Shown in pieces: positions 12,001 to 64,000 of a DNA stretch of 64,000 nt (positions are counted from its first letter, which is position 1; each line of letters begins with the position of its first letter). A program made the translations under genes and the position numbers. The notes beneath the pieces were generated by a model. That model was given only the letters and a program-made list of their open reading frames with translations. It was not told where the DNA came from and searched no databases. This DNA comes from Liolophura sinensis (Eukaryota; Mollusca; Polyplacophora; Chitonida; Chitonidae), in the NCBI RefSeq assembly GCF_032854445.1, contig NC_088302.1, positions 50,250,046 through 50,314,045 on the forward strand. The letters run 5' to 3'.

Positions 12001-15000
12001 GGACATTATACGCTAGGTGATTTGAGGATCGCTTCATAATCCCGGGGTCTGGTGCGCAGGACATTTTACACTTTATGGGTAAATGCTCCATAACCTGTTT
12101 TTGTTTGCTTTCCCTTGTTTTACACCTTCAATATGTATTCTACATGCACTGAATTCTTTTCAACAACACAATAACCCAAGAGCCTCCCAGTACTGTGGTC
12201 GCTGTGAGTTCAAGTCCAGCTCATGCTGGCTTCCTCTTCGGTTGCACAGCAACCTGCGGATGGTCGTGGGTTTCCCCAGGGCTCTGCTTGGTTGCCTCCC
12301 ACCATAATGCTGGCTGCTGTCGTATAAGTGAGATATTCTTGTGTACGGCATGAAACACCAATCAAATAAATAAATAAATAAAAAAACCCTTTCCAGTAAT
12401 ATCCATTAGAACAAGTGCCTTATTGTTATTGCCCTCAATAATGGCAGGGACCTATTGCGGGTCAACTCTCATGCACAGGTAAAAAAAGCACATATTTACA
12501 GGCCAAACTTTAGGTAAAATATAGGACTTGGCTCATGAGGAAAATTTTGTGATCATGGTCCTGGATGGGGACATTGCACAAATTGTTTACAGATGGATGG
12601 ACAGAAGCAGGTCAGAACAAATGGATGGACACATATGGCCTATTACTAAATGAACTAAAGCACAAGCAATCTATCGCTAGGAAGAGGGGAGACTTAATTA
12701 ATTCTCCCCCAAATTATTAAACTCCAAAATCAATGAAGTACTGGTGCCTGAAGCAGATGTGGGACACTGGATTGGATAAAACCAAAGTACACTTATCACA
12801 GCAAAAATATACAGAGATATCTATAATAATGAAACTGAGCCTGTCATTTAGTGTTGATGTGACTTGGGATTAGCTGCTGTTACTTACCACCTCCGTACTT
12901 AGCTGCCAGACATGGGAACTGTAGAATGTTGCTGAGGCCACAAACAAACCCCAGACAGCAGAACAGGTAGTCCAAGTTACTGTTCCAGTTAGCCACATCA
13001 TCTGCAGCCTCCTCTCCATCATTGAAACTATCACCATTTGCAGCACCCGTGTCCGAGAGTCCTGCTTCAAACTCACTGTCATCATAGTCCTGGTCACTGT
13101 ACTGCTCCAGGAAAGGTGGATCGTCTTCATTATCGGAGTCTGTCTGCAAATATCATCGGTAAAGATGCGCTTTACCAACTTGTTGTTTTGTGCAATAATC
13201 ATTCATACAAAGTATGACAGGATTGAAAAGTTCTTGGCATGATGAGCTTAGAGAAGATTCTTCACATGGTGATGTTTCTTCTTCAAATACTCACAGCCTA
13301 ATCATCTTTCTGACTCGAGTTTTAACTTCCTTTATTATATATTCATAAGGAGCTGCTCAATTAGTAACCTATATAACAAGCAGATACAAATAGGGCGACT
13401 CACAGTATCTGAGGTGAAAAACGTTTCTGAATCACAGTCCAGGTTTCTCTATAAAGAAAACCTAGCCTTAATCGTAGTGCCTAATTTTAAGACAGGTTAA
13501 TGGCACAAAAAGAGCTACATGCACATTCTAACAGAATGTAAATAAATAAATGTATTTATTTCTTTGCTGTTGTATGCCACATTCAACAAAATTTCCATTA
13601 TAAAATGGCAGGAAACATTATGGTGGGAAGAAACAGGGCAGATCCTTGGGGAAACCTCCAACCATGTACAGGATGCTAGAATGGCTTGTCACGTACACAT
13701 GTACAAGAGAGGAGGAAGCCAGCACAAGGGACAATAACATGTCCACGTAGAACACTCTTTAAAGCCATTAACATTTATACAGCTGTATACATGTACCTGT
13801 CTCCACACAAATAATCATTTCATCCAAAATTTCTAATGAGGCAAATATGACACAATATACCACTATGCAAAAAGAGAAAAACTTTAAAATATTGTATATC
13901 AATCAGGTATCCAATAGTTTCTCCTGTATGCTCTTTAGCATGTTTGTGAGTCTGGGTCAGTCTCTTTGCTACTTAGTGAATGAATTAATAAAGGCCACAA
14001 CACCCCCCTGACCCCTAAAGGCTATGGCCAGTGAGCGGGCACAGATCACTCAAAACATGTACTTACAGCTTCTAAAATAACATGCTCGTGCATCATCCCA
14101 GAGGAGCAAGACACCTCTGTACCTCCAGGACAAGGCATCCACATAAACTTCATTCAATTATTGATTATTGTTGCATGAATCTGCGGAAAATTTCATGATT
14201 CACAATTCCATGTACAACATCAGCTCACCACAATTCCTCGGCAAATCAGACTTCAAACGTAAGTAAGAGAAGATCGATCAAAGGCAAGCTGCAGATATTA
14301 AATGGGTTGTATATGTTTTAACTCTGAATCTAATAAACTACTGAGGAGAGACTTAAAAGCCGGCCTTCTCCCACTCCCTTCAGTTATATATGTGGGAAGG
14401 GTCAGCATACCACCCACCACACCATTGGATACATCTTGTTACATCTTGCCATTATGAAAAAAAAACACATTGGATAAGTTCTGATGTGGTATTTGCATAG
14501 ATTGTATCAGTGTTTGACAATGCAGGAATGATACCTGTAAGAGTACAGTAGACTTACTCTGACTGTAACTTTCAATGTATAGTACTGGCATCCTCACAGG
14601 TCAAGGCAATGACTCTATCTTGGGTCTGGATTCCCTCTGTTTACAGGCACTGACTGTATCCCGATATCTAATTTAGAGACATTGACTGTAGCTTAATGCT
14701 GAAATCCACAACAGTTTAGAGAAACTGACCACAACTTGGCGCTAGAATCCATGTCAGCTTAGAGATGGTGACTGTAACTTTAGGTGCTGAAATCCATGAC
14801 ATGTATAAAGAGAAAATGACTGTAACTTAGAGCTGGAAACCACAACAGACTACAGAAACTGACTGTAAATTAGTGCTGGAATCCACAACAGACTACAGAA
14901 ACTGAGCGTAACTTAGTGCTGGAATCCACAACAGACTACAGAAACCGACCGTAATTTAGTGCTGGAATCTACAACAGACTACAGAAACTGAGAGTAACTT

Positions 15001-25997: not shown

Positions 25998-27610
25998 TTA
26001 TGACAAAGGCCATATGGAGCAGATGGGAGCACATGACCAAGGCCATATGGAGCAGATGGGAGCAGATGACCAAGGCCATATGGAGCAGATGGGAGCAGAT
26101 GACCAAGGCCATATGGAGCAGATGGGAGCACATGACCAAGGCCATATGGAGCAGATGGGAGCAGATGACCAAGGCCATATGGAGCAGATGGGAGCAGATG
26201 GCCAAGGCCCTATGGAGCACATGGGAGCAGATGACCAAGGCCATATGGAGCACATGACCAAGGCCATATGGAGCACATGGGAGCAGATGACCAAGGCCAT
26301 GTGGAGCAGATGGGAGCAGGTGACCAAGGTCATATGGAGCAGATGGGAGCAGATGACCAAGGCCATATGGAGCAGATGGGAGCAGATGACCAAGGCCGTA
26401 TGGAGCAGATCACCAAGGCTGTATGGAGCAGATGGGAGCAGATGACCAAGGCCATATGGAGCACATGGGAGCAGATGACCAAGGCCATATGGAGCACATG
26501 GGAGAAGATGACCAAGGCCCTATGGAGCAGATCACCAAGGCTGTATGGAGCAGATGGGAGCAGATGACCAAGGACGTATGGAGCACATGGGAGCAGATGA
26601 CCAAGGCCATATGGAGCACATGGGAGCAGAAGACCAAGGCCATATGGAGCACATGGGAGCAGATGACCAAGGCCGTATGGAGCACATTGGAGCAGATGAC
26701 CAAGGCCATATGGAGCACGTGGGAGCAGATGACAAAGGCCATATGGAGCACATGGGAGCAGATGACAAAGGCCATATGGAGCACGTGGGAGCAGATGACC
26801 AAGGCCATATGGAGCACGTGGGAGCAGATGACCAAGGCCATATGGAGCACATGGGAGCAGATGACCAAGGCCGTATGGAGCACATTGGATCAGATGACCA
26901 AGGCCCTATAGAGCAGATGACCAAGGCCGTATGGAGCAGATTGGAGTAGATTACCAAGGCCGTATGGAGCAGATGGGAGTAGATTACCAAGGACGTATGG
27001 AGCAGATGGGAGCAGATGACCAAGGCCGTATGGAGCATATGGGAGCAGATGACCAAGGACGTATGGAGTAGATGGGAGCAGATGACCAAGGCCATATGGA
27101 GCAGATGGGAGCAGATGACCAAGGCCGTATGGAGCAGATGGGAGCAGATGACCAAGGCCATATGGAGCACATTGGAGCAGATGACCAAGGCCATATGGAG
27201 CAGATGGGAGCAGATGACCAGGGCCATATGTTGCAGATGGGAGCAGATGACCAAGGCCGTATGGAGCAGATGGGAGTAGATTACCAAGGACGTATGGAGC
27301 AGATGGGAGCAGATGACCAAGGCCGTATGGAGCATATGGGAGCAGATGACCAAGGACGTATGGAGTAGATGGGAGCAGATGACCAAGGCCATATGGAGCA
27401 GATGGGAGCAGATGACCAAGGCCGTATGGAGCAGATGGGAGCAGATGACCAAGGCCATATGGAGCACATTGGAGCAGATGACCAAGGCCATATGGAGCAG
27501 ATGGGAGCAGATGACCAGGGCCATATGTTGCAGATGGGAGCAGATGACCAAGGCCATATGGAGCAGATGGGAGCAGATGACCAAGGCCGCATGGTGCACA
27601 TGGGAGAGTA
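25998..27610. repeat. 33-bp minisatellite, left block (about 49 units)
   Basis: Units of 33 bp: ATGGAGCAGATGGGAGCAGA then TGACCAAGGCCAT. Occasional units lack the middle 11 bp. The unit is a multiple of three without stops in several frames, so long frames appear on both strands. Near the right end a 297-bp block (9 units) is duplicated, so positions 27016 and 27313 start near-identical stretches. Confidence 0.97.
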
Positions 27611-28270
27611 TGACCAATATAGTGTCATGTCCGACATTCATGTACCATTCGTAGTCCATAAAGGGCGTTCCAAGTCGATAATGGCAAAATCCATTTCCGA
27701 AACAACGTTTAACACTAGCTCCAAAAGACAAAGGTATGTAAGAAATTATACAAATAGGAAATAAAGCCGGTAACACACAAGACAGAAGCAGTCATCAGTT
27801 TTCAATGATACTGGGCAGACAGTGGGTATTCCAGGCATGAATTCCATACCAAAGGTCAAATTCGTAGTCCATTAATGAGTTCCAGGTCAAATAACAATTT
27901 AACAAGGTATCTCAGTGGCGCTTTGATTGCAACTGTTCATAAAGGCATCATGCAGATGTAATGAGCATGGCTGCCTTTACGGCCCCTAGCACGAGGTTAA
28001 GCGGTATTAGATACATTTTGAAAATGACAAGCGTTACAGACCTTAACTGAACAGATTGTGATTCAAAAGTAACAGACCGTTACGTCTTTCCCTTTAATAT
28101 GTAAGGATCTCATACCACAAGAGGTGCCATCTATGATGTTACACATGACATGCTGGTCTGTATAAAAGCTGTCTACAAGATAGATGGTTACACTTGGCTA
28201 TCAGCGCCATCTATGTTGTTAAATACCATGTACGTGACAGATATGTACATAAGGATAACAGCGTCGTCTA
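27611..28270 (-). mobile_element. 3' flank of the retroelement remnant
   Basis: Non-satellite sequence between the left 33-bp block and the reverse transcriptase remnant. TTCGTAGTCCAT occurs at 27647 and again near 27868, a possible trace of terminal repeats. Probably untranslated 3' sequence of the element; its limits are inferred from where the satellite stops. Confidence 0.4.
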
Positions 28271-29814: not shown

Positions 29815-30405
29815 GAATGGAGCAAATGGGAGCAGATGACCAAGGCCGTATGGAGCAGATGGGAGCAGATGACAACGGCTGTATGGAGCAGATGACCAAG
29901 CCCATGTGTGGCAGATGGGAGCAGATGACGAAGGCTGTATGGAGCAGATGGCAGCAGATGACGAAGGCCGTATGGAGCAGATGGGAGCAGATGACCGAGG
30001 CCATATGGAGCCGATGGGAGCAGAAGACCAAGGCCATATGGAGCAGATGGGAGCAGATGACCATGGCCCACATGGGAGTAGATGACCAAGGCCATATGGA
30101 GCAGATGGGAGCAGATGACCAAGGCCTATGGAGCAGATGGGAGCAGAAGACCAAGGAACTATGGAGCAGATGGGAGCAGATGACCAAGGCCATATGGACC
30201 AGATGGCCAAGGCCCTATGGAGCACATGGGAGCAGATGACCAAGGCCGTATGGAGCAGATGACCAAAGCCCTATGGAGCAGATGACCAAGGCCCTATGGA
30301 GCAGAAGACCAAGGCCCTATGGAGCAGAAGACCAAGGCCCTATGGAGCAGATGGGAGCAGATGACCAAGGCCGTATGGAGCAGATGACCAAGGCCCTACA
30401 CAGCA
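29815..30405. repeat. 33-bp minisatellite, right block
   Basis: Same unit and orientation as the left block, about 18 units and more degenerate, several shortened to 22 bp. Together the blocks bracket 2.2 kb holding the retroelement, so the element probably inserted into one pre-existing array. Confidence 0.95.
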
Positions 30406-32508
30406 GATGTGTCTAAAATTCTCTGTACAAGGCCGGGATTGAGCCTGCACCTGAATTGAATTAGGAAATACCAGTACGCACTTAATGATGTGCCAGCTCT
30501 GCATTTTTTTTTGTTATATATGCACACGAGATCAATAGCTAGGAAAAACTTACAAAGGCCAACCACATTAAAGCTTTAAGCTTCAGGAATAAGGTATTCC
30601 AATAAAAGACAGGTTATACCAAACAGTGATTAATTCTGTTACACAGAACTGTGCAAAACTATAAAATCAATTGAAGACTTGAATGATGGCCAGTCTTAGA
30701 GACGCTCAAGATGTTTAGAAAAAATTGTAGGAAGCCCTGTGTAATTCGCTTAATATCTGGTGAAGTCCAGGTTTTATAGCATCCCTTCCCTTGGTTAAGC
30801 CACAGCATACAAAACAACCACGTGTCTTTTTGCTTCTTTTTCAATGTTTATTGGAAAAATCAAACCACTCCATTCAATGGAATGCCAGCGGAAAAGATAG
30901 AGGTACACATAAAATACAGTGCTAGCTCTTACACCCCTTGATGAATACATTCTTCTAATGAGGGAAGCATTAGCAAGGTAAATTGGGCCATCTTTAACAA
31001 CATGCATTCAGGGACGACATAGAGTGTACTAATCAATAATAAATTAGCCTTCAGGTAGAGGAAAATGATCACCAACATGTACACTGGCACAACATAGCAC
31101 TCAAAGCACATTTCCAATTTATATTGACTTTATCGGATCTGTTTTTTGCTGTGTCAAGAATATTTCATGCCATCATTTAACAATTCTTTGTTTGGCATAA
31201 CCTGATCCTCTCAGAATAAACATGGTGGGTCAGAAGGGAAAGCTTTTTTATTCTGGATAAAGAAAGGCATACTTGAGGTTTTAAGATACGGAGAAAAATG
31301 AAACTAAATGTCTATCGAAGGCCCAATAAAAACTTTGATGTAGGGCTGTTTGGGTAAGGTATGGTCACTCAGGTAGTGCAAAACAAACATACTGTTATTG
31401 ACAGCCTCACCCAAATGACAGTCATCTGGTCTATCAGTGGGAGAAATCTGGGGAGCTTGGAGGAAACTGGGCAGGATTTTTCACCACATCCATGTATCTG
31501 ACAAAACTCTTGGCATAGAGTAACAATACATTTCAGTGTTAAAGTCACCTTTACACAACTGGTATACTGCACTGGTATATGTTATTTGTTACATGCCCAT
31601 TGTTTGACATATTCTTTTACGTTTTCATTTTTTTTTTCAAAATTTGATTATTCAAAAGGTTTACACACAAGGCATTTAAAGTGCCAATTCATCTGCCGAG
31701 TATTCAAAATTTTTAGATTTTTAGAAAGCTAAAATTCCATGTTTTTCTCACATTTGTAAATCCTTCGTGAATTTAGTTACACCAATATTATTTGGTGTTT
31801 TACAGTTTTATGGAAAAACAGACATGAAACAAAAATCCACTTTTTATTTTGCCTTACTAGTATCTTAATGTTTTCACGATTTTCCTGTTTTTCAACGCTT
31901 TCTGATCATGTAAATATGTCTTTAGCAGGAAAAATGGCTGGAATAGTCCATATTTTCCACAAATGACGATTCCCAAGTTTTATTTCCATGCTATATTCTG
32001 GCATTCAAGAAACATTTATTCAACAATCCCTGACGGTCCCTGAAGTAAGATGATTCCCATACAAGAAATGAGAACAAAACAGCACGTCATCATCATCAGA
32101 CATACCACTGAGAAATGTACCTAAAAATACCTTCACTAAGTTTTTAAAACTTTTTGAAAAACAATTAAATTCACTTAAAGATATTCACTTGAAATCTGAA
32201 GTAGGCTTTTTATAGTGTTGGATGGCAATGATGTTTTACGGACATTTTTCTTGACCTTTATGTTTGGCCATAAACAAAAATTCTTGTGATTTGCATTATG
32301 CAATGTGCACTAAGAGCTATTCTCATGCCTATTCCATGGTCAAAAAAACAAGGCCATGCATTCTTACAAGAAAACACATTTATATCACATCATCAAAATA
32401 TCTAGTCTTGGAAGATTCATTTTGTATAGTTTACACAGTTTGTTACAAGTACATGTAGCTGCAATAAGCAGCTCAATAAATTGCTCTGTAGGCCTGTCAG
32501 TCAAATTT
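30406..32508. other. Intergenic gap, no supported gene
   Basis: Between the satellite and the 3' end of GEMIN8. AT-rich, with only short frames lacking recognisable features. May include GEMIN8 3' untranslated sequence. Confidence 0.5.
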
Positions 32509-48600: not shown

Positions 48601-51600
48601 TTAATTTATTAGTGCTGGAAATAATGTCTACTCAATGTATATCCTGACAAAGCTGTGCTAGTCACTGTAGTAATGTAAGTTAAGGATTTGGTACAATGTA
48701 GCTGATGTTTACAGCTGTTTATGGGGGCCTCTGTGGCCAAGTTCGTGAGTGTGACAGCACAGCACAGTGACTCAAGAGCCTCTCACCAATGCGATTGATT
48801 TGAGTTCAAATCCAGCTCATGCTGGCTGCCTCTCTGGTCATACATTCTGAAGGTCAGCCAACGACTTGCGAGTGGTCATGGATTTCCCTCGGGTTCTGTG
48901 CGGTTTCCTCCCAATAAAATACAACCTGCTGTCATAAATGTGAAATATCTTTGAGTGCAGAGGAAAACACCAATCAAATAAATAAATAAATAAATAGTTG
49001 TGTTTATGACTGGTATACATCATCTGTTTTCCCTCCCACAGATTAATACCTCTCCTGGTAATGAGGGAGTCATTTACTGCATCTCCTGGGCCCCAGCCGA
49101 TCTCAACTGTGTTGTGGCTTGTACTTCAAAACATGCTGTCTTCATATGGGACATTGGCAGAGGCAAAATAGCAAAAAGATTTTTAGAGGTAAAAATGAAC
49201 TCCAAAGTGGCTTTGAAATATTTTACATTGTGATTTTTGAGAATATTTATAGAAGTACTTTGTCTTTGTAACTTTTGTGGATATGTTCCCTACAACTGTA
49301 AACACTTTTTAGTATATATACACATTTGTATAATCACATTGATCTTTTGGAAACTTTTCTCAGGTATTTCACTTTCTGAAACTAGTGGGTCTTGTTTGGG
49401 TGGAGATTGGCATATTGTAACAAAGGGGTTAACAGTCCTCTTTAATTTAAGTGTTTTTAACATAATATTTGGATGGTGCATCATTACAATGTATTTACTT
49501 GTACATAAGATGATGTAACTGTATTAAAGATGTGAACTGTGGGTCTCTTAGAATGTGAGGCTTCACTAAATGAGGATGTTATGATATACCCTCAGCATGG
49601 TAGAGCCAGTGTGTATTCTGTAGCCTGGAGTAAGAAGGATTCGGGAAGGATCATGTCCTGTGGAGCAGATGGCTATTGGTAGGTCACCCGCTCTTGGCGT
49701 TTTTTATATTTATTTCTCATTTGCTGCTGTTATGGAGCATGGACAAGATATAACTTTAAATAAGGACACCCTAGAAATACAGTTACATGTAAGTGGCAAA
49801 AGAATCTGACACAGTGCGATGAACATTTACAGAAAACAAATGAACGAAAACTGGGCAGCATTTTTTGTTTTTCTTGTCAGCACTTTATATTACTTTCGTC
49901 CACATACTCAAGCAGAGAATTTCGTCGTTTGTAACTTCTCAACTACTTTAGTTCCTGAACCTTTTCGCAGATGAAGGAGCAACTTTCAGTGCAATTTATG
50001 CACATTTCTCATTTGTTTTTGGAGGCAAATCTTCATTGGTTGGATTGGCCAGTTTCAGGGCTTGACAAAAATAGTTTTACCAGGCAACACTGGGTAATGC
50101 CTTCAGAATATGCTTGAATGAACACCTTGCCAACATGAGAAAAGGTTGATTTACAGTATGTATGTAAGGTTGATGAAACAGGAGACAATATCTTGAACTT
50201 TTTCTCAGACATAAGTGATGTACTGATTTTCATTTCAGCATAGTTCGTCAGATAGATGGCACGTTGATTCAGAAGTACAAACATCCAGGTGCTGTATTCG
50301 GCTGTGACTGGAGTCCACATAACAAGTATGGCTCATTTAGTCAGGCACTATTAGCTTTTTTTTGTTAGAAAACAATATTCTCAGTGGTAAACTTATGAAT
50401 GAAAGAACTGCATAGTCAAATTGATCGTAAAATAATATGCGAAAGTGCAATAGTGTCAAGCTTCTGAATCTTTTGTGTTGAGTCTGTCATGTTCCAAAAT
50501 TCTTAGTGTGAAGTTATGCTTGTGTATTTCAGAGATATGCTGGCCACAGGTTGCGAAGACAAGAATGTGCGAGTGTATTACCTAGCTACCAGCCAAGATC
50601 AGGCCTTAAAAGTCTTCTCAGGTATGTAGGTGTGAACGGCATAGATGTCTGTATTGTACAGGTGTATTACCTGCATGTAACTACCAGCACAGATCAAGCG
50701 TTAAAGGTCTCCTCAGGTATGCAGGTGTGCACAACATTAATGTCTGTATTGTACAGGTGTACTACCTACAAGTAGCTACCAGCACAGATCAGGCCTTAAA
50801 CGTCTCCTCACGCATGCAGGTGTGCACAGCTTCAATGTCTATATTTTACAGGTGTATTACCTACATGTAGCTACCAGCACAGATCAGACCCTAAAGGTCT
50901 CCTTAGGCATGCAGCTGTGCACAGCTTCAATTTATTTACTTTCTTGATTGGTGTTTTATGCCGTACTCAAGAATACTTATAGGCGAAGCCCGGGGGGAAC
51001 CCACAGCCATCCGCAGGTTGCTGCAGACCTTGCACACCTTCAGTGACTATATTGTACACGTGTATTACCTACATGTAGCTACCAACACAGATCAGGCCTT
51101 AAAGGCCAGATTTGCAGGTGTGCACAGGTTTGTTGTCAACATTGTGCACCCTAATGATAGGCAAATACAAAACTGATCTCTGTTTGACCAAATTAATTGA
51201 TTTTACACCATACTGAGGAATGTGTTACCTGCCAAATTACAGAGCTAAGTCTCTGAATGTAAAGCTTACCCCGCTCTGTCTGGATTCAAATATGTAACTG
51301 CTTTGACCAGTTGTGGGCTGAGTGATACAGCTGTGGAAATCTTGATGAAGACACATTTTTCATCATTGACTTTCATTGTCTAGTCCAAAAAAGTTTTATT
51401 GAAAAACATTTAATCGAGGTGGAAATTGTCTCTTTCAAAATAAATCCCCTGTTACAGCTAGACATCATTGCCAACATCTTTTCTAGAACTCTTTGAATGA
51501 AGTTTCAGAAATCACACACTGTTGCCCCTCAGCCTATTTGTGATATAAATAATTTCATGTACCTGTTTGTACTTTCACCTCAGTAGACTTTAAGCTAACT

Positions 51601-54600
51601 ATGCAGTGGGCGTATTTTTATATCTTACGTTATTTAACCTGTCATTTCCAGGTCACAGCTCCAAAGTTTTTCGAGTGAGGTGGTCTCCCTTGAGGGAGGG
51701 CATATTGTGTAGTGGCTCAGATGATGGGTAAGTTAATGTATGGTGTTCAGTTTAATATTTAGTTCTTATTGCTATAGATTTTCATGAAACTTATGTCGTA
51801 TTGTCCTTTTTTTTTCATACTTAGTGTTAATTCTTTTAGGGAAAATAACATATAAAGTGTCTACAAATCTGAATTGACTAGTTGTATATGCATCAAGCTG
51901 TTTAGGGCTGTTCCAAATCATGACATTTATAAAACACACTGTTGTTATTACTGTAAAAAGAAGTATTTTCATAATTCTAATCTGTCTTTTGCTTATATAT
52001 TGCATCCTACGGATGATTTGGGGTTTGCCCAAGGCTCTGCCTGTTGTCCTCCCAGCATAATGCTTGAAAAAAGGCCAAAATATAGAATCACAAATGTCAA
52101 ACTTAGTACTGTTTATATCATTAGTCTGATACCTAACTGTATTACTTTGTTCAGTTCAATCAGGATATGGGACTACACCCAGGAGGCTTGTGTGAATGTA
52201 CTCTCCGGTCACACAGCCCCTGTGCGGGGCCTCCTCTGGAACTCAGAAGTACCCTACCTACTGATCTCTGGCAGCTGGGACTACTCTATACGGATCTGGG
52301 ACACCAGGGATGGGGCCTGTGTGGACACTGTTCTGGACCATGGAGCTGACGTCTATGGTAGTATAAGAGACGTTTACTAGCTGTTACGTGTGAGATTGTG
52401 CTAGCTGTTACGTGTGAGATTAAAAGACTGTAAGAAAAGATTCTTGAGGTACATTTCTATGTGCATTATTAATAGATGTGGGTAATTTTTATTTTGAGAG
52501 TTTTTATGTTATCTTCACTCTCGTAATAATCCTGATGGTAAAAAGGGGTTTAGGATGCAATTCCTTTGTGGAAAAAGTTCTCATGTGTGGTTCCATGATC
52601 ACGCATTTACTATACTCATAAACTGTACATTATCAACACTCCTTGTAAAAGTTAGTGTTGTTGAATTGAGATAATCATTCAGAAGGGTTAACTTTGAATT
52701 AAAGCTGTCCGATCACAAGAATTCACTCATGCTGAGCGTATATGTGATTTCTCTGCTATCCAAGGGCTGACTTCCCATCCATCTAGACCATTCGTCTTGG
52801 CCTCCTCATCACGAGATTCAACCGTGCGCATTTGGTCCTTGACCTCTCTGGTTCAGCCAATAGAAATGCACCTCATAGTTCAGCATCCTTGGGAGGTTGT
52901 CATTGGGCCAATAGGTCAGTATCAAGTTTTACCTAAAATCTTTCAGAATTTTAATATTTTATGTCTACTCCTTGTGATACAAACCACTGCGCCACCTGTT
53001 ATTAGATGTGTCACCATAACCTGCTTCATGTGACGATGAGATCCACAGTATCAGTTAAAAGTACAAGCCCTCTCTCAGATGGCACTATGGATATTATTCA
53101 TGTCTTAGTTCTGGGTGCATTGTTCTGGTTATTTGTTAACATGAGCTATTGTCCGGTTGAGTTGACTGCTTCACTGGCTAGATGAATGTCTCCTGCAGAA
53201 TTAGCTACTGTCTTGCACGAGATGATTTGTCAGGTGTTTTCTACAACAGTATGGTTTTTGGCCGTATAGTTTGGAAAGTCTTCCAACAACCTGCAGATTG
53301 TCATGTATTTCCTCCAGGTTGTCCTTAGACTCAGCCCAGTTCCCATCCACCATAATGATGAATATCGACGTAAAAGCGAAATCTTTTTGAGTACTTTGTA
53401 GAAAAACAACACTGAAATGAATAAATGAAATAAATAAAGACATCTTCTGTCTGCCAGTAAGTTTGGCCATTGTTGTTTAAGAATATTTAGGTGTGACATA
53501 ATACACTTATCAGATAACCTTTTGTCATTTACATGTTAATCATAGACATCATTGTGAGTTATCATCATTATCTATGTTTCAGACCGTGCCATGTCACAAG
53601 GCTCTATACCGTTGCTCACAGGCAAGGTGTCTAAAGAACTAGTGCAGCAGATAGACAGGCTACAAGGAAATGTCTATTCAAGAACTTTGCGTTTATTTTC
53701 AAAATTTTTCACAGTAAGCAGGCATTGATTAAAAATATTGTCTGATTATACTTTATAGCTTAAATGTTTACATGTATATGCTTGTTTGTATTTGCTGTTG
53801 TATTATGGTTGTGAAAAGTGCAATCTCCACCGTGTGACTAGAGGTTCATTGAAACATACATGTACTAAATTTGCTGTCTGAGGACGATACCTCACTGTTC
53901 TGGATCTCAAAGTTCATTCCTTTCCTCACTCTTTAAAACATTAACATGATAGAAGCAGGGTAAATACATATATGTTTTCCTGTCAAATATAAAATGTGTT
54001 GACCTGAAAGATTGAAAACAGGAGTGCAGGGAAAAATTTGACCTTAGTGATATTGGAGGGAAATCTTCTTGTTCACAGCATCCAGCAGGCACAAGTAACT
54101 TGTGGGAGTTAGTCAGTGTGGTGATGGGCCTGGATGACAGTCTTCTCTCTACCAACTACAGCAAAGGCATCATGCATGTCCGGCATCTCTCCAGGGTCAT
54201 GGCTGTATGTATCAGACAAATGTCAAGGTCACACCACATCAAGTTAACTGAAAGACTTACTCGGGCATAATTTATCCTAGATCTTTTAGATTTTCTCCAA
54301 CTGAGTGCTATTTGTTTTATGGGATGTTTTAAAAACAGTTTTTAAATTTATATTTCTGTGATCTGTAACATTTCTGAATGTTAGTTATAGTCCTCTCTGT
54401 TTCAGTCTGAAGCTCAGCAACTAGAAATGATCAAAATGGCAAAGTTCGGGGGAGGCATTGGAGCACCAACTAAAGAGGACAGCCTTAAATCAGCTGCTCA
54501 ACTCCATATTAAACTAGGCAATATACAGCGTTACTGTGAACTCATGGTGGGGCTGGGACAGGTCAGTTACATTCAAGTTCCTCACTGGCCCACAGCCTTA

Positions 54601-57600
54601 CTATGAACCTCTGGTGGGGCTGGGACAGGTCAGTTACATTCAAGCTCCTCACCTGCCTACAGCCTCACTGTGAATTCAAGTTGAGACCAGGACAGGTCAT
54701 TTACATTCAGGGTTCTCACTGGCCCACAGTGTGACTGTGAACTCATGGTGGGGCTAGAACAGGTCAGTTACATTCAGGTTCTTCACTGGCCCACAGTGTT
54801 GCTGTGAACTCATGGTGGGGCTAGAACAGGTCATTTACATTCAGGGTTCTCACTGGCCCACAGTGTCACTGTGAACTCATGGTGGGGCTAGAACAGGTCA
54901 TTTACATTCAGGGTTCTCACTGGCCCACAGTGTCACTGTGAACTCATGGTGGGGCTAGGACAGGTCATTTACATTCACAGTCTTCACTGGCCCACAGTGT
55001 TGCTGTGAACTCATTTTGGAGCTAGAACAGGTCAGTTACATTCAGGTTCTTCACTGGCCCACAGTGTCAGAGTGAACTCATGGTGGGACTAGGACAGGTC
55101 AGTTACATTCATTGTCCTCCCTGACCCCCTCCCACACCCTGAACTTGTGTGGCTAGTACAGGTCAGTTACATTCAGGTTCTTCACTGGCCCACAGTGTCA
55201 GAGTGAACTCATGGTGGGACTAGGACAGGTCAGTTACATTCATTGTCCTCCCTGACCCCCTCCCACACCCTGAACTTGTGTGGCTAGTACAGGTCAGTTA
55301 CATCCAGGATCCTCACTGCCCCACAGCCATACTGTGAACTCCTGGTGGAGCTAGGGCAGTTCAGTTACATTCAGGTTTCTCTCTGGCCCACAGCCTGACT
55401 GTGAACTCAAGTTGGGACCAGGACAGGTCATTTACATTCCAGATCCTCACTGGCCCACAGTGTCACTGTGAACTCATGGTGGGTCTAGGACAGGTCAGTT
55501 ACATTCCAGATCCTTACTGGCCAAGTGCTCCATACTGCGTCAGTTAAGATCTAGCGTATATCACCACTGTGTTCGGACTATTTCTACCAGGTGTGGAGGA
55601 TTCAGGAAGATCATCAGATATCTGGACAGATGGAATTGTTACTCCACCTATAAGCTAGAAGGCCATTGTACAAAATAAAACTTCCTGAAAATGGCATAAA
55701 ATATTAATTAAATAAATAGTGAAGTTATATATAGTTGTGTAATATAAACTGTAATACAGTTATAAAAACAGCTATATTATCGATTCCACCTTCTTGCCAG
55801 TCGCCTTAATTTCGGTTGTTTGTGGTTTTCTAATACATACATGTATTAATTGTAGCAGATAGCTACAATGTTGATTCAGATCACAAGGGAATTACTCACT
55901 CTGATATATACCTGTATATGTTATCATGTTATTACAGTGGGAGAAAGCCTTGGCAGTATCACCTGGGGTATCTATGGAGTACTGGACATCATTATCCAAA
56001 AGGTAGGGCTTCTTATCCTAATCGTGTCTGCATTTGTAGACAAGAACAGTGGGCATGGTTGACTTCTGTGAGCAGATGTAAAAGATATCCACTCACAGGG
56101 ATAGTCCTGAAAATTGTGAATTATAATGGTGAAAATTCTGTGGATTGCTTCAGCGCATTTTTTGCTCGCCTGTACGAAGTAAGGCGATGTATTACGAGAT
56201 GGGGGCAAAGTGTCAGCGTTGGTATCAGGTTAATCCTTTTTTTTTAGCTCCTGTATAATGGGCTCTCATGTATGGATTGAAGGTTAAGCCTTTTCTTTTA
56301 GCTCCTGTACATGTATAAGGGGCTCTAATTCATTGAGAGCTTTTTTGTTTAGCCACTCTGGTCTCTAGGTATGGTATGTAAATGCACATACTCAGATGGC
56401 AGGTTAAGCTTTTTTTTTAGCTCTTGTATATCAGGCTGTCATACATGGATTGAAGGTATGGTGGGTAAATGCACAATCTCGGATGCCAGGTTAAACTTTT
56501 TTTGAGCTCTTGTTTATTGGGCTATCACACATGGATTGAATGTTAGGTTTTTTTTGCTCCCTAGTTTAAGGTATGGTGTGTAAATACACATTTCCAGATG
56601 GTAGGTTAAGCTTTTTTTAGCTCCTATATAATGGCAATCATAGATGGAGAGAAAGTTATGTTTTTATTTGTGTTGTTTTTTTTTATATTTCTTTTCATCT
56701 GTGTACATCTGCAAAGGAGCTACTGATGGAAGGTTGAACTGTTTTATTGGTTTTAATTTTATAGGCTTTGTGAATGTTTTTTAATGGTTTTAATTGATAG
56801 ACTAAACTTCAGTTGTAGGAAACATGCTTTGTACAAATTAAGTGTCCATGCAGGGCAACAGTTCTTATCTACAGGGTTTCTGTGGCATTATTGCTTATGA
56901 GATTTATGGACTTTGCCAGATTTAGCATTTTTGTAGTCAAGACAAGTTTGTAGGGCTACAATTTTTATGCACATGCCTATCTACATGTTGGAGAACAAGA
57001 AGAGTATTGGGTTCCCCTGGCATTTTTTTTTACCATTTTCCTGTTTTCTTGACACACATTCAGATTGACTTCATTTTATGCTTCTGTAAACACAGATTTC
57101 TACAAGCCTTGCTTGTAGGACTACAGTTTCTTATGCAATCACTTATCTAGATAAGTTTTTTGTCTCTCTAGCTCCATGCACTTTACCAGTTTTGTGGAAT
57201 GTAAGAAATTACCTTGATGTACATGTATATTAGTCTATCTTGTAAACATGTACATAGTAGACACTGGCCGATGCATGTGCCTTCCTAAATTGTGAAGGAG
57301 TGTTTAAGCATGCAGACAGGGACTGTTGTCAGCTGGGTATTTGCTCAGCCAATAAGAGGTCTGCAGAGGCCACCCATAGTACACAGAAAACCAATCATGG
57401 GAAGCGATTTGCATGTGAAATACCACTCCAGCGAGTTGGTACTCGAACACCTCACCGTGAAGTTTTTTACTACAACAGCTCAACATTTGCTCAGCCATTC
57501 ACAGCGTTGGAATTGTTCACAGATTGCAGCATGCAGTTCACAATTCGCATATCAAAGACCACTCCCTCAGTTTTGTGCACAAACTCTTTACCACCACAAC

Positions 57601-63529: not shown

Positions 63530-64000
63530 CGTTGCTAACTCACCATCACTTACCTCTGATGACTTGTACCTTAGCACCAGAACTGGTGCAGACCTTTTGC
63601 ATACCATCGGCTTACTACCCAGCAGTATTACACATCACACACCTGACTCACTTGCCATCACTTATCTCTGATGACTTGTGCCTTAGCACCAGAACTGGTG
63701 CAGACCTTTTGTATACCATCGGCTTACTACCCAGCTGTATCACACATCACACACCTGACTGACTCTCCATCACTTACCACTGATGACTTGTACCTTAGCA
63801 CCAGAACTGGTGCAGACCTTTTGCATACCATCGGCTTACTACCCAGCTGTATTACACATCACACACCTGACTGACTTGCCATCACTTATCTCTGATGACT
63901 TGTACCTTAGCACCAGAACTGGTGCAGACCTTTTGTATACCATCGGCTTACTACCCAGCTGTATTACACATCACACACCTGACTGACTCTCCATCACTTA
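63530..64000. repeat. 112-bp tandem array reaching the right edge
   Basis: At least four copies of a 112-bp unit containing GATGACTTGTACCTTAGCAC, AGAACTGGTGCAGACCTTTT and CTACCCAGC. Copies are nearly identical. On the minus strand each unit has CAGAG|GTAAGTG, a strong donor-like match. The array continues past 64000. Confidence 0.95.

Follow-up and report, generated by a model that had tools for sequence, protein, structure and literature searches.

Minisatellites that span exon-intron boundaries were named mirages in amphioxus, where one paper describes them in Adh3 and in the globin genes BflGb6 and BflGb9 and considers that they may be a general cephalochordate feature (PMC3087553), and a second paper adds lancelet troponin C and PGBD5 as further cases (PMC3902484). 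For the potato RdRp gene, another study reports intron gain via tandem duplication across an intron-exon boundary (PMC4974935). The present analysis concerns an array of the mirage kind in a window of 64,000 base pairs (bp) from the chiton Liolophura sinensis (contig NC_088302.1, positions 50,250,046 to 50,314,045), the window being the whole stretch of DNA that was analysed. The array lies over the junction of exon 15 and intron 15 of a WD-repeat/TPR-type gene, for which the exon number and the name WDR17 are labels of an initial annotation that had described repeated copies of the end of this exon in the next intron. With a probability of roughly 0.92, we interpret the array as a neutral minisatellite spanning an exon-intron boundary.

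Tandem Repeats Finder (TRF) delimits an array on the plus strand with a period of 67, 15.0 copies, 80% matches and a score of 1133, which starts inside exon 15 (Table 1). Its parent sequence consists of the last 33 bases of exon 15 (54529-54561) together with the donor CAG/GTCAGT. An anchor search located 15 anchors in the array, one where exon 15 itself ends (54561) and one in each of 14 intronic units, at a spacing of 67 bp with two steps of 64 bp. Twelve of the intronic 33-mers are clean: they align to the exon tail ungapped, are stop-free in the parental frame and have AG directly 5', and all but one (the copy at 55327, with TT) have GT directly 3' as well. The initial annotation had reported twelve such in-frame copies, eleven of them followed by GT, and the anchor search bears this out; its inventory stands for the clean copies and is incomplete in having left two degenerate units (33-mers at 55129 and 55260) uncounted. 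Each of these two closes one of the 64-bp steps, has lost the AG and part of its similarity, and has an altered copy start. Inside the array, moreover, a 131-bp block is doubled (55014-55144 versus 55145-55275, 97% identical), and both degenerate units probably represent one event that was copied by this later duplication. Comparison of 336 bases of the array with the whole genome returned four matches, every one inside the array itself, in a search that skips common words and does not prove uniqueness. A tandem array in such exact register is no chance match.

The anatomy of the unit accounts for the layout of its copies. The unit extends from an exonic ACAG (54525-54528), the CAG of which is a glutamine codon, to about 30 bp into the intron, with an exon part of about 37 bp and an intron part of about 30 bp; past the last copy TGGCC is followed by AAGTGC, and within the array TGGCC is followed by C and then ACAG (read by eye). 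The apparent CCCACAG acceptor of the copies is thus the exon's own ACAG set behind an intron fragment, because the duplication junction placed it there. As the AG comes from the exon's own CAG codon, the GT is its own donor and 33 is the distance between the two, the in-frame, splice-flanked layout is one inherited fact and not twelve. Exon 15 (SEAQQLEM...RYCELMVGLGQ) and exon 16 (WEKALAVSPG...) join in phase 0 across an intron of 1,376 bp, for which reason a 33-nucleotide (nt) insert is frame-neutral, and the earlier statement that one copy could be inserted without a frame shift holds. Judging from the sequence, we infer that the array would have started with a tandem duplication of about 67 bp, from the ACAG near the end of exon 15 to a point about 30 bp into intron 15, and that the duplicated piece would have carried the exon tail plus the donor. 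Slippage or unequal exchange may later have amplified the unit to about 15 copies. The first (outermost) donor would stay the real exon end and the only one used in splicing, while the remaining units would be spliced out with intron 15 and would evolve without detectable coding constraint.

The locus shares with the amphioxus mirages (tandem units of 10 to 160 bp there) the composition of its units from an exon edge and the adjoining intron, with AG and GT copied in many units, the existence of donor-side and acceptor-side forms, and signs of turnover within the array. Here the unit holds exonic and intronic sequence across a splice junction, itself inferred from sequence, and the 15 units stand head to tail at 67 or 64 bp, with the 131-bp block as a secondary duplication. 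It differs from them in that the host is a mollusc and not a cephalochordate, that a multiple of three separates a chance AG from the donor, and that the case is known from genomic sequence alone. With potato RdRp and with human boundary repeats it has in common a tandem duplication over an exon-intron boundary that supplies ready-made splice sites, whereas here the intron appears, as far as visible, merely to have been enlarged by the array. Tandem exon duplication, including mutually exclusive exons, also gives rise to extra in-frame copies of exon sequence within the following intron; in contrast, the copies in the chiton gene comprise the last 11 codons only, lack the exon's own acceptor and give no sign of coding constraint. 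No report of mirages in molluscs was found among the open-licence papers listed by literature searches, which does not prove absence, and the available parts of two further papers (PMC3862624, PMC12783039) hold nothing on boundary-spanning arrays. The mollusc host group and a rough frequency of exon-edge arrays are what is new here.

Evidence for neutrality comes from the changes among the copies. In ten units, namely the one at the real exon end and nine intronic ones, the 33-mer and the spacer are both complete; pairwise differences among these average 0.208 for the 33-mers and 0.126 for the 34-bp spacers, and the average among the 12 clean intronic 33-mers is 0.204. A comparison of 33-mers with spacers had been proposed as a check by the initial annotation; run within this genome, it gives no stronger resistance to change in the 33-mers. 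Variable columns number 20 of 33 in the 33-mers versus 12 of 34 in the spacers (P = 0.051 by Fisher's test; P = 0.13 by a one-sided permutation test of exonic above spacer), so that the higher variation of the 33-mers is only suggestive and there is no sign of extra constraint on them. Relative to the consensus of the 12 clean copies, 24 distinct changes were counted, of which 5 are synonymous, 18 are non-synonymous and 1 would by itself be a stop, against a random-draw expectation of 5.1, 17.7 and 1.2, respectively; in this one genome, the changes match what is expected without coding constraint and look neutral. Minor-base counts at codon positions 1, 2 and 3 are 17, 18 and 8. The absence of stops was considered as evidence for function and rejected, since the 12 full spacers have no stop in any of the three frames and the chance of zero stops in 12 copies without selection is 0.11 if the copies are independent and 0.29 if distinct changes only are taken.

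Similar arrays occur at other exon edges of this genome. A sample of 120 exon matches was assembled (40 myosin head, 60 kinesin and 20 SNF2, from 81, 132 and 58 listed matches, respectively), taken first by E-value, stop-free, about 90-300 bp long and with 400 bp on each side. Seven edges were flagged as crossed by TRF arrays, the 3' edge of 4 of the 120 matches and the 5' edge of 3; reading of the sequences left 4 and 2, which amounts to 6 of 240 edges. The rate is rough, given that exons from a single gene are not independent of each other, that some of the stretches overlap and that the end of a domain may not be the end of an exon. The difference is a 5'-edge array (L064) that was flagged by the script and taken out of the count, its exon beginning after the array; a weak 3'-edge array (L117; 30 bp, 2.4 copies, 76%) is nonetheless counted. 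A separate chaperonin sample took 30 of 50 matches, of which the 21 that lack stops form the basis of the rate (two matches with stops inside, L020 and L021, were also flagged and stay uncounted); 3'-edge arrays were found in 2 of these 21 (L012 and L023) and 5'-edge arrays in 0 of 21.

The donor-side arrays also allow the layout of the copies to be compared. At least one in-frame, stop-free copy flanked by AG and GT is present in five of eight other donor-side arrays (L023, L020, L072, L119 and a second array in the window's own gene), and no such copy is present in the other three (L012, L047 and L117), a repetitive donor motif inflating the copy count of L047 (16). TTGTACAG or a close variant stands directly before the copies of the second array in the window's gene, of which the first has GT and the second and third have GC in the donor place. 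The kinesin array L119 has the same layout as the array at exon 15: each of six intronic 36-nt exon-tail copies keeps the frame, contains no stop and lies between AG and GT. Their acceptors score poorly (-1.8 to 1.9) on the scale described below, and the six copies differ from one another by 0.067 over the 36-mers and by 0.054 over the spacers (the real exon's unit, out of register, excluded). On the acceptor side, another kinesin array (L081) carries a strong copied acceptor (score 11.0) in four upstream units and has lost the AG in two.

Several considerations count against a neutral reading. The paper on mirages in Adh3 and the globin genes itself notes that copied splice signals could act as cryptic sites and proposes that a mirage unit may become an exon, so creating introns (PMC3087553), and repeats at exon-intron boundaries are reported to have given novel introns in human genes (PMC2812944). 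Splice signals were scored with a weight matrix derived from the edges of the 120 exon matches of this genome (114 donors, 116 acceptors) and seeded with general consensus frequencies. Apart from the TT at 55327, the array donors are good on this scale and rank at the 25th or 66th percentile among real donors, and 13 of the 14 intronic units retain GT; the donors score well, however, because they are copies of a real donor. Only the parental frame is free of stops throughout the 12 clean copies, and the remaining two frames are interrupted in 10 of 12 and 12 of 12, but this difference says little because the 12-of-12 stop is present already in the exon and the 10-of-12 stop is mostly one shared change from CTG to CTA. 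In favour of neutrality, the acceptor-like sites of the 12 clean copies reach scores between 0.8 and 3.3, which places them at the 55th to 76th percentile among the AGs at positions 40000-63900, versus 8.0 for exon 15 and 7.5 for exon 16, both outside the matrix set. This comparison is biased by taking as real acceptors the best in a small window and by scoring only 14 upstream bases. Within these terms (a matrix score, not an assay), the acceptor-like AGs of the copies are at background level and far below the gene's own acceptors. The silence of the copies in splicing, finally, is a deduction from the DNA sequence.

These points bear most directly on the idea, put forward by the initial annotation, of a reservoir of alternative micro-exons, by which single 33-nt copies would be included between exons 15 and 16 and would add an 11-residue variant repeat to the helical region. 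The phase-0 junction, the length of 33 nt (a multiple of three, stop-free in 12 of 12 clean copies), the AG and GT on 11 of 14 intronic units, the donor scores and an upstream intron of at least 101 nt from the second copy onward would all permit such inclusion, a 34-bp spacer being too short as an intron between neighbouring copies. Nevertheless, the changes are as expected without coding constraint, the 33-mers are no more conserved than the spacers, no synonymous bias is seen and the acceptors are at background level. The recurrence of the same layout in the kinesin gene, and less neatly in other arrays, suggests geometry rather than function, and amphioxus mirages with AG and GT in their units are reported not to disturb regular splicing (PMC3087553, PMC3902484). 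We consider a micro-exon reservoir very unlikely, and the annotation's other suggestion, a recent array not yet decayed, is supported by the neutral-looking change, the 131-bp duplication, the decay of 2 of 14 units and the comparable arrays in unrelated genes.

Selection might act on the donors instead, if copies of the exon 15 donor served as decoys that slow or modulate the splicing of intron 15 (for instance towards intron retention or transcripts that truncate) and their copy number tuned expression. The GT retention and the real-donor-like scores would fit this, as would the fact that extension of exon 15 to any array donor truncates the protein, since an in-frame TGA precedes the first intronic donor (54629); yet GT retention needs no selection where 22 of 34 spacer columns are unchanged, and two of the three copies in the gene's second array have GC for GT, which leaves a decoy role improbable in our judgment. 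Active seeding of arrays at splice junctions, for example through a nuclease or a block to replication at the ends of exons, could be proposed from the presence of exon-edge arrays in all five gene groups examined (the window gene, chaperonin, myosin, kinesin and SNF2). Of the 120 matches, however, 4 to 5 are covered by an array at the exon edge and 15 to 21 at a distance of 250-350 bp, on either side (13 at 400 bp, the end of the stretch), and because coverage rises away from the edges the arrays are not concentrated on them; the pattern resembles the overall density of repeats, with arrays tolerated at the edges, rather than targeting. The 3' and 5' edges are both affected, albeit in a small sample, and seeding appears extremely improbable. 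A further proposal is that exon-edge minisatellites are frequent enough (6 of 240 edges) in this mollusc to supply donor-flanked and at times in-frame exon-tail copies, some of which (the 33-mers or the kinesin 36-mers) may be spliced in at a low level as raw material for micro-exons or introns; we regard this as unlikely, too.

The host gene and the surrounding DNA provide the context of the array. The joined WD part of the gene gives WD40 repeat matches, and the solved structures it matches are other WD-repeat proteins (among the best 60 of 736); the part encoded by exons 15 and 16 has a TPR_GEMI5 match below the cut-off. Arrays of period at least 8 cover about 12% of the window (14 arrays, 7,595 bases, summed by hand). 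Two of the window's arrays, at 26000-27617 and 29817-30409 and about 2.2 kilobases apart, have the same kind of unit (ATGACCAAGGCC...GGAGCAG) at 33 and 23 bp. An array of about 27 units of 112 bp, which starts at 63538, runs off the window and continues to about 66558 in the stretch L036, was considered as a third exon-edge array of the region and left uncounted, no exon having been identified at its edge; its 112-bp unit contains a donor-like CAGAGGTAAG on the minus strand, and L036 holds 1 match of this motif versus 17 of CAGAGATAAG. A GC-rich stretch at 50948-51050 resembles part of a dispersed repeat, its core pattern matching once more in the window (12241-12259, 3 mismatches). Elsewhere on the contig of the window, the mollusc haemocyanin beta-sandwich domain gives eight matches in one run. 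The domain is known from molluscs only and marks the genome as that of a mollusc; in gastropods, eight is the usual number of units.

Table 1. Features of the array, its host gene and the comparison arrays (window positions unless a genome contig is given).
Feature	Position	Strand	Remarks
67-bp minisatellite over the exon 15/intron 15 boundary, about 15 units	54525..55522	+	TRF, anchors, divergence
Eight clean exon-tail copies	54596..55097	+	AG..GT, stop-free; 33-mers at 54596, 54663, 54730, 54797, 54864, 54931, 54998, 55065
Degenerate copy	55129..55161	+	after a 64-bp step; no AG
Clean copy	55196..55228	+	AG..GT, stop-free
Degenerate copy	55260..55292	+	no AG; probably second product of the 131-bp duplication
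Last three clean copies	55327..55493	+	33-mers at 55327 (donor lost: TT), 55394, 55461
Exon 15, WD-repeat/TPR-type gene	54406..54561	+	number and name WDR17 from the initial annotation
First in-frame stop (TGA) on reading exon 15 past its donor	54604..54606	+	5' of the first intronic donor
Exon 16	55938..56002	+	phase 0 join; 3' end approximate, set by eye at AAAAG/GTAGGG
Second exon-tail array, same gene, over the 3' end of an upstream WD-repeat exon	50583..50931	+	period 95, 3.7 copies
Chaperonin L023, donor-side exon-tail array	G000:C1:72036829-72039978		109 bp x 5.1
Chaperonin L012, donor-side exon-tail array	G000:C8:53404471-53407662		66 bp x 7.0
Kinesin L119, array at exon tail	G000:C1:4570548-4571515	minus	63 bp
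Kinesin L081, acceptor-side array	G000:C8:681771-682780		64 bp x 6.7

Taken by itself, the array at exon 15 is ordinary repeat DNA. Its wider bearing lies in the host group, as mirages had been described as perhaps general to cephalochordates (PMC3087553), and arrays of this kind are present here at a few per cent of the sampled mollusc exon edges. In genomes of this kind, geometry by itself can produce in-frame, stop-free copies that lie between AG and GT, and such copies should not be annotated as exons without transcript support.

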